From assembly GCA_014730295.1 (NCBI GenBank), contig WJIN01000335.1, positions 1-6,574 on the forward strand: a stretch of DNA of 6,574 nt, given 5' to 3'. Position numbers and translations under genes: made by a program. Below, one piece after another: positions 393 to 6,574 of this stretch (the first letter of the stretch is position 1; each line of letters starts with the position of its first letter). The notes below the pieces were generated by a model. The model made no database searches and had not been told where the DNA came from. It was given only the letters and a program-made list of their open reading frames with translations. This DNA is from Promethearchaeota archaeon. Lineage in GTDB: Archaea; Asgardarchaeota; Lokiarchaeia; Sigynarchaeales; SOKP01.

Positions 393-1787
393 ATGGAAAA
401 AAAGAATTTAGAAAGGCTCAAACAGAATGCGATAGACAGGTTAAAGAAACGGAATTCTCTTTCAGGTTGGACTCCTCAACCAATCCGAGACGATAAGAAT
501 GCATTTTTGGGGGAAACTATTCCTCTTAATTCCCGCAATCAAATCTCTCAAGACGAGCCTCAGCTCAATGAGAAGAGTAGACTAAACGAGCAGGCTTATT
601 GGAAATTAGCTGGCCAATTTATTACAAAAATAAGGCAACTAAAAAACGAAAGTCTCAATCAAATATTCAATATCAAGACTGTGTCCCGAATTTCCTATAA
701 AAACCTAAAGAATTTGTATGAGAAATTAAAGGATGTATCTCCCGAATTTAGCACCGTTCAGTCCATCCGTACAATATTTGGATCTCCCTCGGAAACGAGA
801 CATATTAAAGATTCCCTGCACGTTCATGTTAATATTCCTAAACAAAAATGGGATGACAACTGTAAAGCTTGGATAACTCAATTCCATAATAATTTAACAA
901 GATTTTGGATAGGAATTTTTGGTCACCATGTTCGCTGGACAGCCAACTTAAGTAATCAATTCTCTAAAATAGATGTCCAAGTGAATGGCCAACGGTTAGG
1001 AACCTTTTCATTCGGGAAAGTCATTGGGGCATTAATGAATGCCTATTTGGAGGTGTTATCCCAAGAGATCGTAGAGATCGATGATAAGGAGGGAGAATGG
1101 AACCTTTATGACGACGAAGAGAGTATGTTTTTTGTAGACAACCCGAAACCAGAGAACATTAAACAAGTAGGAGCGACTGATTCAAGTGAATTCAAAAAAA
1201 AATTACGTAAATTAATTGAACCTTATGAATTTAGCACGAATAAAGAGGATTTACTCGATTTTATGACCTTGCTTTATGAGCAAGACTCATCAACAGCGAT
1301 GAAAGTCTTCGAACGACTTGAGGGCCAACTAAGTCTTAACTTGCCAAAATTAAGTTGGGGTGAAATCATAAAACGGTACGGCGATCCAATCTTTGCTCAA
1401 CTGGTGAAAGATATTAAGATTAACTTTAAGAAATTATTCCTTAAGCGTTTTCCTCGGTTCAAATGGGATGATTACCTTCATTATGTTTTATTCCTTGCTC
1501 AGCCTTTGATCGTCAGTCAATTTGCGCATCAAGAAAAATCCTTTCTTCGATTTATAAAAAACTGTCTCAATGGGTCCAATTGCGATCCCATGTTTTACAT
1601 TCGCGAAAAATCCGATGCCATCTTTTTCTTCAAGTGGTTTCAACGCATTATAAATAAATACGATAAATTAAAGACCATTGAAAATCCCGATAAATTCGAT
1701 CCCGAGCGTATTGCCAAATTAAATAGGTATCGAAGCCAGCACAACGCCTTTTTGGTTCTTGCCACCTGTGAGGTATTGATCTCAAGA
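393..1787 (+). other. Unassigned N-terminal region of the giant protein (residues 1-465)
   Basis: I recognise no family here. It begins with a basic helix (MEKKNLERLKQNAIDRLKKR), then a polar linker to about residue 65. A mixed region follows with HVHVNIP near residue 143 and an aromatic stretch (FWIGIFGHH) near 172. An acidic segment lies around 226-255 (EIDDKEGEW, DDEES). The rest is mainly helical up to the zinc ribbon at 469. There are no signal peptide, obvious membrane segments, Walker motifs or cysteine clusters. It could be a divergent REC/WED half of a Cas12-like lobe or an unrelated DNA- or protein-binding domain. Confidence 0.5.
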
Positions 1788-4700
1788 CCGGACCAGTGCC
1801 CAGAATGCGGAGGGCGATTGCTCAGAGATCCTCTCTATGATTACTGGGTTTGCAAGGATTGTGGAATCACCCCCGGTGAAAACAAATTAGAGATCACTAT
1901 TCGTCCCCGTGATTATTCAACAGAAAAAAAGCGCACCCATTGGGCTCCCAGAGATGAAACTACCAAGCATCAATCCACACTTCGTCAAAGAGACCTCTCT
2001 CGATACCCTCAATTAAAACGAGCCCAAAAATTTGCTCGGGAAGTTGACATCAAAGCATTATACGACAAGGATAAGGAAAAATATATTGAATTATTGGCCC
2101 ATCGCTTAAATTATCCCCAAATCTTAATTACAGAAGCGATTCTCTTATTTAGAAAAGCATCGGAGAAGAATTTAGCCTACGCCCCTTGTTTTGTACGAGG
2201 CCTGTCGGGAGCGATTTTATTTTATCTCGCCCGCACGAATTCTCTTCCGCACACCAAAGCAATAATCGCAAATGAGATTAACGATTTTAACGTCAAGCAG
2301 CTTGAAAAATGTTATGCAAAATTAATAGAGGGACTGAATCTCAGCTATCCTTTAGAAGACGTAACGCGGTTGGTCCCCGCAATCCTTTCCGAGGTTGATC
2401 TTTATACACCTCAGATCCAGCAGCGAATCGAAACCATGATCAATCAATTTTATGAGAAATATCCCGCCAAAGTGGGAAATCCCATATCATTCATAGCTGC
2501 TCTTCTGTTCTTACTATCCCATGAGATGCATTTAGGACTGGAAACCTCCATATTGGCTGAGAAACTGGAGATAACCACAACAACTATTCGGTACTATTTA
2601 AAGATGATCAAATCCCTAATCGAAGAGCCAAAACTCGGCGATGACTCATTTGAAAGCTTGGTAATTAGTGATGAATACCGCCACCGCTTGGAAACTATCA
2701 ATTCTATCTTCACCCAAGAAATTATTAAATCCCAGATTCCCCGATTTATTAGGGAAAAAGCACCTAAAATATTCCCAGTACAAAAAATCAGGTCTATTTT
2801 TGAACGAATAATTGACCTTTGGATTGATCAATGCTGGACACAAGTTCCCAAACTCATCACCGAGCAGCCTTTTGAGCCATACACTATTCTCCATCCATAT
2901 TTATATGATTATTGCCAAGACTGGGGTTCTTGGACCTTCTGCTGCGCGGTCTATTGCGGACTCGTCATTAGTGAGCTTCGGGGCGATCTTACAGTCTCTC
3001 TCAATGTAAAGGAGGATTCCCTTGTTAAGTTGTTCAGCAGGTTTATTGAAGCTATTTTCAGTTTAATCGAAAATGAAATTGAGAAACGGTTTTCCGACTT
3101 TACGCATATGATTTTACGATTTGTTGAGATGAAACAAGATGCTGCTATTAAAACTCCTATACTCTCCAAGTTGAGAATTACTCCAGAAGTTAGAAAAGAA
3201 CCATCGTTGGATCCCATACCCTTAGAGGGCACCGTCGCCTTTGCACAAGAGGAACAAGAGGAAATCTGGGAATTCATTAGAAATCATCCTAAAATAACCC
3301 CTGAACAAGTTCGCACTCATTTCAAGCTTGCAAATACACCAGATATTGTGGAAGAGCTTACCAAATACGTGGAGATTATCAGCACAATGTCCGATTACAG
3401 TCGAAAGCTCACTTATACCCAGTTGGCGCAAAATGCCGATTCCTCCCTAAGTCTCGTGAAAGATATTGCTTCACATTTGAATTTACGATGGCGATTTTAT
3501 AAGTCTAGTACCAATTACACCGTCACACGTAAATTTTCTTTGCAACCGCATAAAGGAACGCTCGGTGGAAAATATGAAAAGGGAGAGCATTCGTCCATTC
3601 ACTTTATTCGCAAGCAACTTTTTAAATATCGTGATTTGCAGAATCTTTATGTCCAATTCTTAATCGATGAAATTCGGGCAAATCCCAACATCCTTGCCAA
3701 CAAGCCATGGGAATATCCTAACTTTTACTTAGACTTAACCAAACAGCAGAAGGCTCAATTCAAAGCTAAATATCCAAACAAGAGATTTCTTACCGATTCT
3801 AAAAAGCGAATTGAAGAATATATTTATAAATATTATAGACAGCAACCGAGATTTAAAAATTTGAAATCGAACTATTGGAAGGAAGAAAACTTATTGGAAC
3901 GGGCTAAGCAGAACGCCATCCGCAGCGCTACCTATGCGGTTCGCAATTGGGTTATTCGCAACGAGCGATTAAAAATTCTAAGAGATAAATTGGTGGCTTA
4001 CTTACAATCGACTGAGTCCACAGAAGTCTACAGCTATTCCCAAAAAGCTAAAATTACTATTCCTTCCCAACGAGAATACATAATCCGTGCGTTTCTAATG
4101 GGCAAACGGTTTTACAAGGAATATTTAAGAGATCTTTCCAACACTACCAAGCGTAATATTTTCGGAGAATACGATAGACGCTCCTTTGAAGAGATCTATA
4201 ACCATATCGGGCAATTGAAAAATATATTATATAAGACTCGCAGCTTAGATGTTGTATTTGAGGACGCATTTACGAGTTTATGGGATTACTTGCAAGATCC
4301 CCCGGAGATCGTCGATAGATTTCTGGAGAGTTGTTTTGAGCGATTTGAAACTGATGGTAAACCTCTAGGAAATGTCTTTCTGAAGATGTTTGTACGTAAT
4401 GTACGCACCAAGAGCACCAAGCTAGCAGCTCAACTTATCGAAGGCAAAAAGGGATTTGGAGACTCTAACTCACCCATCAATCAATTAACCAAAGATATTT
4501 TAAAGGGCGGCATAACTCATATTGACTCCTTCAAAGAGGAGCGGAATCAGCGTTTTGGCCAGCATACAGTAATGGAAACAGAGGTTGTATTTGACAGAGA
4601 AGACTTAAAAGCTGAAGTTTTAGCCAGATTGAAAGAATACATCCAAGATGAGGTTTTGAATATCCCGAATCGCCATTTTGCCAAGACCTTATTCAAGCCC

Positions 4701-6065
4701 ACCTTTCGAGCCGTGAAGATTCAATCTTTAGATTTTGAGGGATTAATTAACTATATGATTACTAAACTATTTTATGAGACAAAAGAGCGGCTCCCCGAAC
4801 TAATATTTGCCTTAAATATCGGAGATGATCTGATTCGGGCGACCATAAAAGAGCTTAACAACATTAAGATGTATCAGTTGCCTACTCCCGAAATGGAACA
4901 GCTTACCATTAATTTAACTAGAAAACAGCAATTATTTAGGCGCACATGTCCAGAATGTCGCAATAAAGTTACAAAATGTACATGTAATAATCCCCCCAAT
5001 TCCCATCAATTTGAGTTTAGATTAATTTCGGGTACCAGAGGAGTAAAAGGGGGGCAAAATTGGACCACATTTGTCTTGACCCCTCGTCAAGAAAGACGCT
5101 ATTCTCGGATGATTAGGGATGGTTACCAACCAAAAAATCCCGTAATTAAATTAGAGAGGCGCAAATTGATAGTATGCCAACCTTTTGACGCAAAAAAGGC
5201 AGAAGCGCCCATTTCCGAGTCTGTTCAAAGACAAGGTAATGAAATGGGTATAGATTTAGGCATTCTAGATTTTGGTGCCTTAAGTATCAAGGATAGCCAA
5301 ACTAATCAATACCTCGCTGAGTACCGACTTGGAGAGGCTGAATTATATGATAAATGCTTTGAAAAAGGTAGCTTTGAGTATATTAAATATGTAAATGAAT
5401 TTATCGCTATGGATGCTAAAAATTGGGGCAGAAGTCTCAAGAATTATGTGGATAAAGAAGCCAAGCCCACCCGCATCAAAGCGAAACTGATTAATTTACG
5501 CACCGAAGTCCAGAAATTACAGAGATTTAAAGCCGAATTTGAAAGCGAATTTCCCGACACCTATAAAAACCATCGTGTATGGTTCCACCGTGCCAAATCG
5601 GTCAGCCTATTGTGGAACAAAATCAATAAACTCAATAAAGACATCATAAATCGTCTTTCAGGATTGATTGTCAAAATTGCCAAATACCATAATGTAAAGC
5701 GGATTAAGTTCGAAGATCTACGCTGGGTCAAGCATCGCAAGAAGCAAAGAACAGGTAAATTCTTGGCCTTTTGGCAGACGCATTGGTTCTTTTCGCAAGT
5801 ACAATCCATGGTCACCCAGAATGCAAAACGCAAGGGCATCGAAGTCGTCATTGTAGAAGCTGCATACACCTCGCAAAGATGCGCGGAATGCGGAGTGCAA
5901 GGGACCAGCCATAAGAAGGTCTTTATTTGCCCTCACTGTGGCTTCAAGAAAGATCGAGACCTTAACGCCGCCCGCAACATTGTGAATTCAAAAATCTATC
6001 ATAACTTATACCTTATGGACTTGAGTAGCAGTCCTGTGCATTGGGCAGAAATGTCCATATTTTAA
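393..6065 (+). CDS. Giant TFB-like / TnpB-Cas12-like RuvC nuclease fusion protein (1890 aa)
   Basis: This appears to be an RNA-guided-nuclease-family protein fused to a general transcription factor module. Domains in order: 1-465 unassigned; 466-746 TFB/TFIIB-like (zinc ribbon C469, C472, C487, C490, then two cyclin-like repeats); 747-940 helical, unassigned; about 950-1046 two possible winged helices; about 1068-1518 helical, REC-like; 1519-1531 Cys cluster; about 1575-1600 WED-like strands; 1615-1867 RuvC nuclease with D1621, E1774 and D1856 plus a four-Cys zinc ribbon. TnpB proteins are usually about 400 residues and Cas12 proteins about 400-1500, so this one is exceptionally long. The start is firm: an in-frame TGA at 387 lies two codons upstream, and the next in-frame ATG is more than 200 codons downstream. 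No Shine-Dalgarno sequence is visible. The frame has no interruption, so the protein is probably made and selected for. No tnpA, cas genes or array accompany it. The nuclease assignment is strong and the TFB assignment good. RNA guidance, DNA cleavage and transcriptional action are inference. Confidence 0.9.
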   Translation: MEKKNLERLKQNAIDRLKKRNSLSGWTPQPIRDDKNAFLGETIPLNSRNQISQDEPQLNEKSRLNEQAYWKLAGQFITKIRQLKNESLNQIFNIKTVSRISYKNLKNLYEKLKDVSPEFSTVQSIRTIFGSPSETRHIKDSLHVHVNIPKQKWDDNCKAWITQFHNNLTRFWIGIFGHHVRWTANLSNQFSKIDVQVNGQRLGTFSFGKVIGALMNAYLEVLSQEIVEIDDKEGEWNLYDDEESMFFVDNPKPENIKQVGATDSSEFKKKLRKLIEPYEFSTNKEDLLDFMTLLYEQDSSTAMKVFERLEGQLSLNLPKLSWGEIIKRYGDPIFAQLVKDIKINFKKLFLKRFPRFKWDDYLHYVLFLAQPLIVSQFAHQEKSFLRFIKNCLNGSNCDPMFYIREKSDAIFFFKWFQRIINKYDKLKTIENPDKFDPERIAKLNRYRSQHNAFLVLATCEVLISRPDQCPECGGRLLRDPLYDYWVCKDCGITPGENKLEITIRPRDYSTEKKRTHWAPRDETTKHQSTLRQRDLSRYPQLKRAQKFAREVDIKALYDKDKEKYIELLAHRLNYPQILITEAILLFRKASEKNLAYAPCFVRGLSGAILFYLARTNSLPHTKAIIANEINDFNVKQLEKCYAKLIEGLNLSYPLEDVTRLVPAILSEVDLYTPQIQQRIETMINQFYEKYPAKVGNPISFIAALLFLLSHEMHLGLETSILAEKLEITTTTIRYYLKMIKSLIEEPKLGDDSFESLVISDEYRHRLETINSIFTQEIIKSQIPRFIREKAPKIFPVQKIRSIFERIIDLWIDQCWTQVPKLITEQPFEPYTILHPYLYDYCQDWGSWTFCCAVYCGLVISELRGDLTVSLNVKEDSLVKLFSRFIEAIFSLIENEIEKRFSDFTHMILRFVEMKQDAAIKTPILSKLRITPEVRKEPSLDPIPLEGTVAFAQEEQEEIWEFIRNHPKITPEQVRTHFKLANTPDIVEELTKYVEIISTMSDYSRKLTYTQLAQNADSSLSLVKDIASHLNLRWRFYKSSTNYTVTRKFSLQPHKGTLGGKYEKGEHSSIHFIRKQLFKYRDLQNLYVQFLIDEIRANPNILANKPWEYPNFYLDLTKQQKAQFKAKYPNKRFLTDSKKRIEEYIYKYYRQQPRFKNLKSNYWKEENLLERAKQNAIRSATYAVRNWVIRNERLKILRDKLVAYLQSTESTEVYSYSQKAKITIPSQREYIIRAFLMGKRFYKEYLRDLSNTTKRNIFGEYDRRSFEEIYNHIGQLKNILYKTRSLDVVFEDAFTSLWDYLQDPPEIVDRFLESCFERFETDGKPLGNVFLKMFVRNVRTKSTKLAAQLIEGKKGFGDSNSPINQLTKDILKGGITHIDSFKEERNQRFGQHTVMETEVVFDREDLKAEVLARLKEYIQDEVLNIPNRHFAKTLFKPTFRAVKIQSLDFEGLINYMITKLFYETKERLPELIFALNIGDDLIRATIKELNNIKMYQLPTPEMEQLTINLTRKQQLFRRTCPECRNKVTKCTCNNPPNSHQFEFRLISGTRGVKGGQNWTTFVLTPRQERRYSRMIRDGYQPKNPVIKLERRKLIVCQPFDAKKAEAPISESVQRQGNEMGIDLGILDFGALSIKDSQTNQYLAEYRLGEAELYDKCFEKGSFEYIKYVNEFIAMDAKNWGRSLKNYVDKEAKPTRIKAKLINLRTEVQKLQRFKAEFESEFPDTYKNHRVWFHRAKSVSLLWNKINKLNKDIINRLSGLIVKIAKYHNVKRIKFEDLRWVKHRKKQRTGKFLAFWQTHWFFSQVQSMVTQNAKRKGIEVVIVEAAYTSQRCAECGVQGTSHKKVFICPHCGFKKDRDLNAARNIVNSKIYHNLYLMDLSSSPVHWAEMSIF
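1788..2630 (+). other. TFB/TFIIB-like module within the giant protein (residues 466-746)
   Basis: The zinc ribbon CPECG (C469, C472), then YDYWVCKDCG (C487, C490), has the CX2C-X14-CX2C spacing and the YD...VC.DCG signature of TFIIB/TFB. A basic linker (about 497-550) follows where TFB has its B-reader and B-linker. Cyclin repeat 1 spans about 555-650: LLAHRLNYP, then ILLFRKASEKNL at 583-594, matching TFB's 'A..iYRKA.EK.L' helix, then RGLSGAILFYLAR at 602-614, where TFB has its R-[S/D]-...AALY.ACR helix. Cyclin repeat 2 spans about 665-746: GNPISFIAALLFLLS, then AEKLEITTTTIRYYL at 722-736, matching TFB's 'aevagVTevTIRnrYkel' BRE-reading helix-turn-helix. Length (about 280) and order match free archaeal TFB (about 300). 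In TFB the ribbon docks on RNA polymerase and the cyclin repeats bind TBP-DNA. Whether both surfaces persist needs modelling. Confidence 0.82.
3240..3530 (+). other. Possible tandem winged-helix/HTH motifs in the giant protein (residues 950-1046)
   Basis: Residues 957-997 (EEIWEFIRNHPKITPEQV, continuing to a leucine-rich helix and VEIIS) have the helix-turn-helix rhythm of a winged-helix domain: a short helix, the 'hp.iT.eqv' turn, and a second helix. Residues 1005-1046 (KLTYTQLAQNADSSLSLV, then helix and strand) repeat the pattern: 'yTqLA..ad.slslVkdia..L' followed by a WRFY strand. Two HTH units between a TFB-like module and a nuclease would add DNA contacts. The match is by pattern only, with no diagnostic catalytic or metal-binding residue. 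Confidence 0.35.
3594..4946 (+). other. Helical REC-like region of the giant protein (residues about 1068-1518)
   Basis: The segment is almost entirely predicted helix, basic and aromatic-rich, and lies just before the WED and RuvC parts. That is where TnpB/Cas12 proteins carry their REC lobe, which grips the guide-target duplex. LLERAKQNAIRSATYAVRNW at 1167-1186 resembles the helices of that lobe. The order of parts supports the call; no single residue is diagnostic. At about 450 residues it is much larger than the REC domain of TnpB and closer to a Cas12 REC. Confidence 0.4.
4947..4985 (+). other. Extra Cys cluster in the giant protein (residues 1519-1531)
   Basis: TCPECRNKVTKCTC places C1519, C1522, C1529 and C1531 in a compact CX2C-X6-CXC pattern that could bind one zinc ion. 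It lies just upstream of the WED-like strands (PVIKLERRKLIVCQPFD, 1583-1599). It is separate from both the TFB ribbon (469-490) and the RuvC ribbon (1830-1849), making three potential zinc sites in one chain. Confidence 0.5.
5235..5993 (+). other. TnpB/Cas12-type RuvC nuclease domain with zinc ribbon (residues 1615-1867)
   Basis: RuvC-I is GNEMGIDLG, with catalytic D1621. RuvC-II is RIKFEDLRW, with catalytic E1774. RuvC-III is KKDRDLNAARNI, with D1856 as the likely third metal ligand. Between motifs II and III lies the classic OrfB zinc ribbon: TSQRCAECG (C1830, C1833) and FICPHCG (C1846, C1849). The combination is diagnostic of the TnpB/Cas12/Fanzor superfamily, whose members cut DNA under RNA guidance. 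All three acidic residues are present, so unlike the nuclease-dead TldR-type repressors it is likely to cleave. The D1621-E1774 spacing of 153 residues is longer than the 87 of ISDra2 TnpB (D191-E278); the surplus is partly an insert around 1640-1700. Confidence 0.92.
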
Positions 6066-6083
6066 GCTACTCTGAATGAGGTA

Positions 6084-6574
6084 TTATCCTAAAATGAGAT
6101 TAAATTCCGATGTTAATTTCGCAGGAAACTCTCCTAAATAACTCTGTGGATCAGCAAAAAGTAAATAAAAATAAGGTTCAAAAAGGCCCTCAACAGTTAC
6201 ACCTATACCACTATTAATTAGGTAAACCCACACTTGCTCATCCTTATAAAGGGATTGCCGATATTTCCATTCTAAAGGCTCAATTTCTGGGATTGCCCCA
6301 ATATTTCTTAAAATAATTTCAATATCCTTAAATGAATACTTATCTCCAAATACTACGATCGGGGAGAGGTCGAAAGAAGTAATGCAAATTCCTTCTAATC
6401 CGTAATTTCCCATATTTCTTAAAAAATTGTTCGCTAATCCTTCAATTTTCTTCTTATTTTTCATGACATGCTCTCTTGCGGTGGTATCAGTTAAGATTTG
6501 GATCAATTTGTCCTCTTCTTTGAGTTTAATTTTGTCTGCGGTTTCTAAAGGAATTTTTGTCGATATTATTATAT
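6084..6574 (-). CDS. Small protein with possible roadblock/LC7-like fold, C-terminal 162 residues (5' end outside window)
   Basis: The minus-strand frame is open from the right edge to a TAA at 6086-6084. No start is needed inside the window. A TTG at 6506 and an ATG at 6464 exist, but the frame continues upstream through KIPLETADKIKLKEEDK, so the true start is probably beyond 6574. Order of elements: a charged helix (LIQILTDTTAREHVM through NNFLRNMG), strands GLEGICITSFD and SPIVVFGD, a helix (FKDIEIILRNIG), a polar loop, strands VWVYLINSGIGVTVEG and YFYLLFAD, and a closing helix (SYLGEFPAKLTSEFNLIL). This helix-strand-strand-helix-strands-helix order, with the LG near the last helix, resembles roadblock/LC7 domains, which bind small GTPases and are abundant in Asgard archaea. 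The fold is inference; no family signature is certain. It converges on the giant gene with 18 bp between stop codons. Confidence 0.7.
   Translation of the reverse strand, partial: IIISTKIPLETADKIKLKEEDKLIQILTDTTAREHVMKNKKKIEGLANNFLRNMGNYGLEGICITSFDLSPIVVFGDKYSFKDIEIILRNIGAIPEIEPLEWKYRQSLYKDEQVWVYLINSGIGVTVEGLFEPYFYLLFADPQSYLGEFPAKLTSEFNLILG

Follow-up and report, generated by a model that had tools for sequence, protein, structure and literature searches.

Cas12 descends from TnpB. One bacterial pairing of a Cas12-like protein with a transcription initiation factor is Cas12f-sigma, where RNA-guided transcription is carried out by separate proteins and the nuclease is dead. Among TnpB proteins of IS607-type elements, that of ISFba1 is presented, in the part of the publication available to us, as a RuvC nuclease of 387 aa with a pseudoknotted RNA beside its gene and a programmable guide (PMC11061315). 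According to the accessible part of a further source, TnpB processes its own mRNA into the omega-RNA, the right end of the element being the end of the scaffold and the guide lying outside the element (PMC10278001). TnpB-like proteins that act as nuclease-dead, RNA-guided repressors have been named TldR (PMC13418256, as far as accessible).

A single reading frame with two modules

The window (the whole 6,574-nt stretch of DNA analysed) contains one reading frame that joins a segment homologous to the archaeal transcription factor TFB (residues 466-742) to a TnpB/Cas12-type nuclease (approximately residues 1040-1866; see Table 1). The sequence-only reading of this DNA had described the same two parts in one uninterrupted frame; ORF, profile and motif evidence agree that the fusion frame is real and that its two-module reading is right.

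Table 1. Positions of the features in the window (residue numbers refer to the fusion protein; the last row refers to loci of relatives).
Feature	Position	Strand	Evidence
Single ORF, TFB-TnpB fusion (1,890 aa)	393..6065	+	ORF listing; even GC3 and codon use
N-terminal region without recognisable relatives (residues 1-465)	393..1787	+	homologue searches
TFB zinc ribbon (residues 466-493; C469, C472, C487, C490)	1788..1871	+	7/8 Asgard TFB invariants
B-reader/B-linker position, degenerate (residues 494-539)	1872..2009	+	2/9 invariants
Two TFB core (cyclin-like) repeats (residues 540-742)	2010..2618	+	HMM 85 bits; hhalign 99.3%; invariant counts
Inter-module region (residues 743-1039)	2619..3509	+	weak scattered matches only
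TnpB nuclease (residues 1040-1866)	3510..5990	+	profile, fold and triad evidence
Extra CxxC...CxC knuckle, CPEC...CTC (C1519, C1522, C1529, C1531)	4947..4985	+	window-specific nuclease insertion
RuvC triad D1621 / E1774 / D1856	5253-5255 / 5712-5714 / 5958-5960	+	intact, invariant
TNB zinc domain (C1830, C1833, C1846, C1849)	within 3510..5990	+	residues checked
Predicted omega-RNA 3' scaffold	6014..6073	+	covariance model, pair counts, geometric search
Scaffold hairpin GGACT/AGTCC	6017-6034	+	predicted
Scaffold GNRA hairpin GGGCA-GAAA-TGTCC	6043-6056	+	predicted
Pseudoknot arm GCTACTC	6066-6072	+	predicted
Deduced guide segment (10-nt spacer and 3' end of the neighbouring gene)	6074..6093	+	boundary in aligned relatives
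Conserved Asgard gene, convergent; C-terminal 162 aa (~285 aa in relatives)	6084..6572	-	66/227 Asgard genomes
Inverted partial motif copies in relatives	L001 1544-1604, L007 7479-7522, L005 571-625, L004 1671-1723, L174 4277-4351		

The whole fusion protein, compared with 5.8 billion proteins, matched only itself (among lengths of 0.55-1.75 times that of the query), residues 1-1050 as query gave zero matches in the protein search, and the viral collection gave no relative. Within 227 Asgard genomes, residues 1-436 had one weak match (E 0.0016), and residues 750-1041 had weak matches in 21 genomes, which, with a best E of 0.0014, are not believed to be real homologues. A UvrD-like match to the N-terminal part was rejected as it did not reach the Pfam cut-off. 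The search for other genomes with both modules in one chain, as proposed along with the sequence-only reading, returned no second fusion from the 27 homologues of the nuclease or from the matches listed for the 227 Asgard genomes, where at most four nuclease candidates per genome were scored and where no open frame of the matches listed exceeds 873 aa, which leaves no room for a fusion of such length. By these searches, one copy of the fusion is known, on one contig. The proposal that the architecture was undescribed also held, since the literature searches gave no description of it; TnpB and TFIIB were not found together in one paper of the literature searched, and neighbouring topics gave nothing relevant. 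New to the searches made here are the combination of modules, a TnpB of this size and a TFB part that is so worn, the parts themselves being known.

The presence of the fusion on a single contig, without a second sample, raises the question of an assembly chimera in which a TFB-bearing gene and a tnpB gene were wrongly joined, and the codon use of segment 746-1035 is indeed the least similar one (correlation of 0.46 with segment 1036-1450). Nevertheless, GC3 lies between 0.39 and 0.42 in all five segments of the frame, the synonymous-codon correlations between them amount to 0.46-0.83, the methionine at the start position of stand-alone TnpB relatives is absent from the fusion frame, and the 3' end of the nuclease runs properly into its own RNA scaffold and then into an Asgard gene. 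On account of this even composition, the missing ancestral start and the orderly 3' end, a chimera is regarded as highly improbable. The only internal methionine in residues 952-1120 is M999, whose ATG lies about 40 residues ahead of the nuclease part.

The TFB-derived module

The profile check of the TFB segment confirmed its homology to TFB (HMM, 85 bits; hhalign, 99.3%), the profile being made from 12 of the 13 fetched TFBs (L185 was left out, as its chosen frame had no start). Nine of these 13 TFBs were used for the invariant counts and have 55 positions in common, of which the fusion keeps 22 and has lost 33: seven of eight are kept in the zinc ribbon, two of nine at the B-reader/linker position, seven of 20 in the first and six of 17 in the second repeat (one position lies outside these four stretches). 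The GRS motif of the first repeat is lost completely (0/4; R, G, R, S), whereas the last helix of the second repeat still has T728, T731 and R733. As a control, the two most divergent TFBs were compared with the rest and kept 55 of 68 and 55 of 78 invariants; measured in this way, the module of the fusion is clearly more divergent than every TFB of the comparison set. The AlphaFold model of the segment, calculated from a two-row alignment, had a pLDDT of 36, too low to be of use. The earlier description as a "near-complete archaeal TFB module" was therefore adequate for the ribbon and the two core repeats, but not for the degenerate B-reader/linker and the lost GRS motif, and it is because of these losses that we speak of a TFB-derived module and not of a TFB.

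Generally, the zinc ribbon of TFB/TFIIB binds RNA polymerase, and the B-reader/linker serves promoter opening. It is the conservation of the ribbon that leads us to propose that the TFB-derived module could dock on RNA polymerase; given its altered B-reader/linker, it is probably unable to open promoters. TATA-like motifs numbered 50 in the window compared with 39 expected (18 of 200 shuffles were as high), and no promoter is claimed. Scans of the viral collection with single TFBs as queries gave no match. The scan with the TFB alignment retrieved one viral locus, a TFB homologue of 318 aa on an IMG/VR contig (L195, 1794-2750).

The nuclease and its family

The C-terminal part had been taken for an intact TnpB/Cas12 nuclease with D1621, E1774, D1856 and a zinc ribbon, and its sequence bears this out: the RuvC triad is invariant and the TNB cysteines are present, as in TnpBs of IS607 type. 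In addition, it carries a knuckle insertion (CPEC...CTC) that is missing from all 18 aligned relatives. The guided_TnpB model scored 84.8 bits against the fusion (cut-off, 100), and the PADLOC models of Cas12u3 and Cas12f matched the RuvC part with 100 and 91 bits, respectively; all PADLOC matches (Cas12-type models and one model labelled Csx1) fell within the C-terminal nuclease part.

Residues 1051-1890 as query retrieved 27 homologous proteins (among lengths of 0.55-1.75 times that of the query). The nearest is 36% identical, and the nearest seven (P0002-P0008, one of them labelled Promethearchaeota) show 34-36% identity over the nuclease; in the tree, the window sequence is sister to these seven large Asgard TnpBs (support 100/99). 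By HMM, none of the 27 homologues has a TFB module, in contrast to the window. When the genomes of 84,980 species were scanned, the best 18 loci were labelled Lokiarchaeota, Heimdallarchaeota or Asgard group, apart from one labelled Bathyarchaeota, and nuclease matches with E <= 1e-25 occurred in 18 of the 227 Asgard genomes.

A MerR-Resolvase gene is the hallmark of IS607-type tnpA. Such a gene (Resolvase and MerR) is located just upstream of tnpB in L001, L004, L008 and L164, and upstream but split over two frames in L005, so that five of the ten loci inspected have a tnpA; it was not seen in L002, L006 and L007, while the locus of L003 starts near a contig edge and L018 exhibits DNA similarity to the MerR-Resolvase gene only. 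Family copies that are 85-95% identical have their DNA in common up to approximately 100 nt past the stop codon. Judged from these sequence features, the nuclease family is one of large Asgard TnpBs of IS607-type elements, sometimes without tnpA. The family context thus leaves the TnpB/Cas12-type assignment in place and narrows it to an IS607-derived TnpB with its own omega-RNA.

Several relatives carry N-terminal additions of their own: P0004 approximately 520 residues, made up of a zinc ribbon and some 480 others, P0005 about 190 residues (with a hydrophobic stretch, by eye) and P0013 about 140 residues; the distant relative P0026 has a C39-type peptidase domain. An identification of the P0004 ribbon as TFB was rejected, because the HMM does not support it and hhalign aligns the ribbon only (40%). 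The additions in P0004, P0005 and P0013 hint that such extensions can be useful, and this bears on the question whether the TFB part of the fusion is a decaying, functionless remnant next to a TnpB part that acts by itself and is perhaps also made from a start at M999. The singleton nature of the fusion, the loss of 33 of the 55 TFB invariants and the ATG shortly before the nuclease would be compatible with such a passenger; the stop-free N-terminal part of 1,040 residues, the well-kept zinc ribbon and the absence of a methionine at the relatives' start speak against it, and we consider it rather unlikely.

The predicted omega-RNA scaffold

The predicted scaffold overlaps the last codons of the fusion frame. 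The relatives have a common hairpin past or across the gene end, the loop of which pairs with a downstream arm to form a pseudoknot, after which the similarity stops. A covariance model (R1) built from 15 relatives, with the window excluded, matched positions 6014-6074 with 27.6 bits (E 1.8e-6, and 8.1e-5 over 46 sources), the next best match in the window having 6.7 bits. This score is lower than the 54-73 bits of the rows inside the model; L003, L004 and L017, which are in neither alignment and were found later by R1, scored 72.8, 71.1 and 67.5 bits. Motif and structure had been read by eye in the window and its relatives before the pairs were counted and the geometric search was run, so that only the R1 test excludes the window.

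The motif was present in 20 of the 30 sources scanned, and 16 were aligned (L010, L011 and L171 were left out because they looked too divergent, L155 because it duplicates L005, and L019, L042 and L092 were left out too). In this alignment of 16 RNAs, 15 of them distinct, 96.7% of the 180 cells pair compared with 21-43% in slid controls, and double changes are found in eight of the 12 pairs; the count of further pair types did not exceed that of shuffles, 206 of 500 of which were as high. All 12 pairs are preserved in the window, but in different letters (GAGTAGC/GCTACTC instead of the CCGTTGY/GCAACGG of L001 and others); its scaffold is of the same class as that of L001. The exact hairpin-plus-pseudoknot geometry, chosen after the scaffold had been seen, has a single occurrence in the window, which is on the plus strand and at the place of the scaffold (0.04 expected per strand). 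For the 116-nt RNA, the folding energy was not lower than that of shuffles (z -0.57), and no Rfam family was detected in the window at E values up to 5. The arrangement is that of IS607-type TnpB genes, with a predicted omega-RNA scaffold at the 3' end and a guide taken from the flank.

Guide, insertion site and missing parts of the element

Since a T directly follows the pseudoknot arm in all 16 rows, the end of the scaffold was put at T6073 and the start of the guide at 6074. The deduced guide is GAATGAGGTATTATCCTAAA; its second half consists of the stop and last codons of the convergent gene on the minus strand. Relatives of this gene have up to 68% identity, and the seven titled genomes with a relative are six Lokiarchaeota and one Bathyarchaeota; it has no Pfam or PADLOC match, nor has its L201 relative a Pfam match. 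In the best 10 of 76 matches, its 3' neighbour is a convergent gene 14-29 nt away, which we take from its sequence to be tpiA (triosephosphate isomerase), and in the window the place of tpiA is occupied by the TFB-TnpB frame. The guide, as deduced here, is the flank of the insertion site. A guide derived from the flank suggests that the nuclease serves homing or retention and is not a defence effector whose spacers are foreign: in the retention model, TnpB cuts the empty site and thereby keeps its element. The exact 16-nt guide was found in none of the 227 Asgard genomes, and neither a target nor an empty site was detected there.

No tnpA appears in the ORF listing of the window, and no R1 match is situated just upstream of the fusion frame, where a left end might be sought; a complete IS607 element is therefore not evident. 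At the left ends of five relatives, a weak, inverted and partial copy of the omega-RNA motif was observed (E 0.0003-0.09); these copies are perhaps a terminal repeat that recombinase and guide RNA have in common. At the left edge of the contig, another frame comes to its end (2-196), by eye that of a leucine-rich-repeat-like protein, so that tpiA, if present, would lie beyond the contig. In the interval between this frame end and the fusion gene, an 18-bp palindrome-like motif, GTTGATAATTTTATCAAY, occurs twice (192-209 and 225-242, 33 bp apart) and could be an operator.

The origin of the guide also bears on a transcription-linked defence or interference role, in which the TFB part would lead the nuclease to transcribed invading DNA. 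The sharing of one frame by both modules would fit such a role, as would the matches to the PADLOC Cas12u3 and Cas12f models, which are expected of a TnpB relative of Cas12; but the guide is host flank, the repeats that were listed for the window (6.6 kb) include no CRISPR array (as in type V systems), and the neighbouring gene matches no PADLOC model. This role is thus very unlikely. For the related suggestion that the host pre-initiation complex is sensed as a defence trigger, no support was found.

An RNA-guided transcription factor, the TnpB part of which binds a guide-matched site to which RNA polymerase is then recruited by the TFB part, would agree with the kept zinc ribbon, the partly kept last helix and the conserved scaffold, and it would have a TnpB-derived precedent in TldR (PMC13418256, as far as accessible). 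Unlike in TldR, the RuvC triad is intact and invariant; moreover, the B-reader/linker is worn, the GRS motif is lost, and the guide points to the 3' end of a gene and not to a promoter. From the earlier proposal of such a factor, the TFB module and the scaffold remain in agreement with the data, while the simple activator is disfavoured by the worn B-reader/linker and the intact triad, and we regard this function as unlikely.

Proposed function

The reading that we prefer, with a probability of roughly 0.5, is a guide-RNA-directed homing nuclease that is tethered by its TFB part to the host RNA polymerase. According to the retention model, the omega-RNA would direct the cutting of DNA without the insertion, and repair would copy the insertion back; the TnpB part likely still cuts. 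The omega-RNA would be a processing product of the mRNA of the gene itself, as described for TnpB in the accessible part of PMC10278001. The zinc ribbon, as the best-kept portion of the TFB part, may dock on RNA polymerase, and transcription would not be started by the TFB part, its B-reader/linker and GRS motif being lost; it is from this combination of a kept ribbon and a lost reader/linker that we infer the tether. The latter might direct the nuclease towards DNA that is being transcribed or link it with the transcription of its own locus. Without tnpA and a visible left end, this copy may have lost its self-mobility, but the missing tnpA alone is no proof of domestication, as some relatives are also without it.

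Comparison with known systems

Like Cas12f-sigma, the fusion combines a Cas12-like protein with a transcription initiation factor; it differs from the separate proteins and the dead nuclease of that system in being one chain, in having TFB in the place of sigma and in its intact triad. A one-chain recruiter that brings RNA polymerase or a stalled initiation complex to a guide-chosen site, i.e. an independently evolved archaeal counterpart of Cas12f-sigma whose nuclease may still cut, is conceivable but rather unlikely. With archaeal TFB and eukaryotic TFIIB, the module of the fusion has in common the zinc ribbon and the two core repeats; it deviates from both by the loss of the B-reader/linker and the GRS motif and by its connection to a nuclease.

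The ISFba1 TnpB, as far as it is described in the accessible part of PMC11061315, shares with the fusion the Cas12-like RuvC D/E/D triad and an adjacent pseudoknotted RNA with a programmable guide (both predicted in the window). In contrast to its 387 aa, the TnpB part of the window comprises approximately 830 aa and is placed behind a TFB-bearing part of 1,040 residues; tnpA, a visible left end and an Rfam family are absent from the window. TldR and the fusion are both TnpB descendants linked to transcription, the former being nuclease-dead according to the part of the source at hand (PMC13418256), whereas the latter retains its triad and is accordingly not a TldR.

The fusion also draws attention to its Asgard TnpB family, whose members are unusually large, have a guide-RNA scaffold that covaries and differ in their N-terminal additions, of which there are several. 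So far, TnpB descendants have turned to transcription by loss of the nuclease, as in TldR, or by pairing with sigma; a TnpB with an intact triad that is combined with an initiation factor and a guide scaffold would be a third route, and it would be situated in the Asgard archaea, which are thought to be the closest to eukaryotes.
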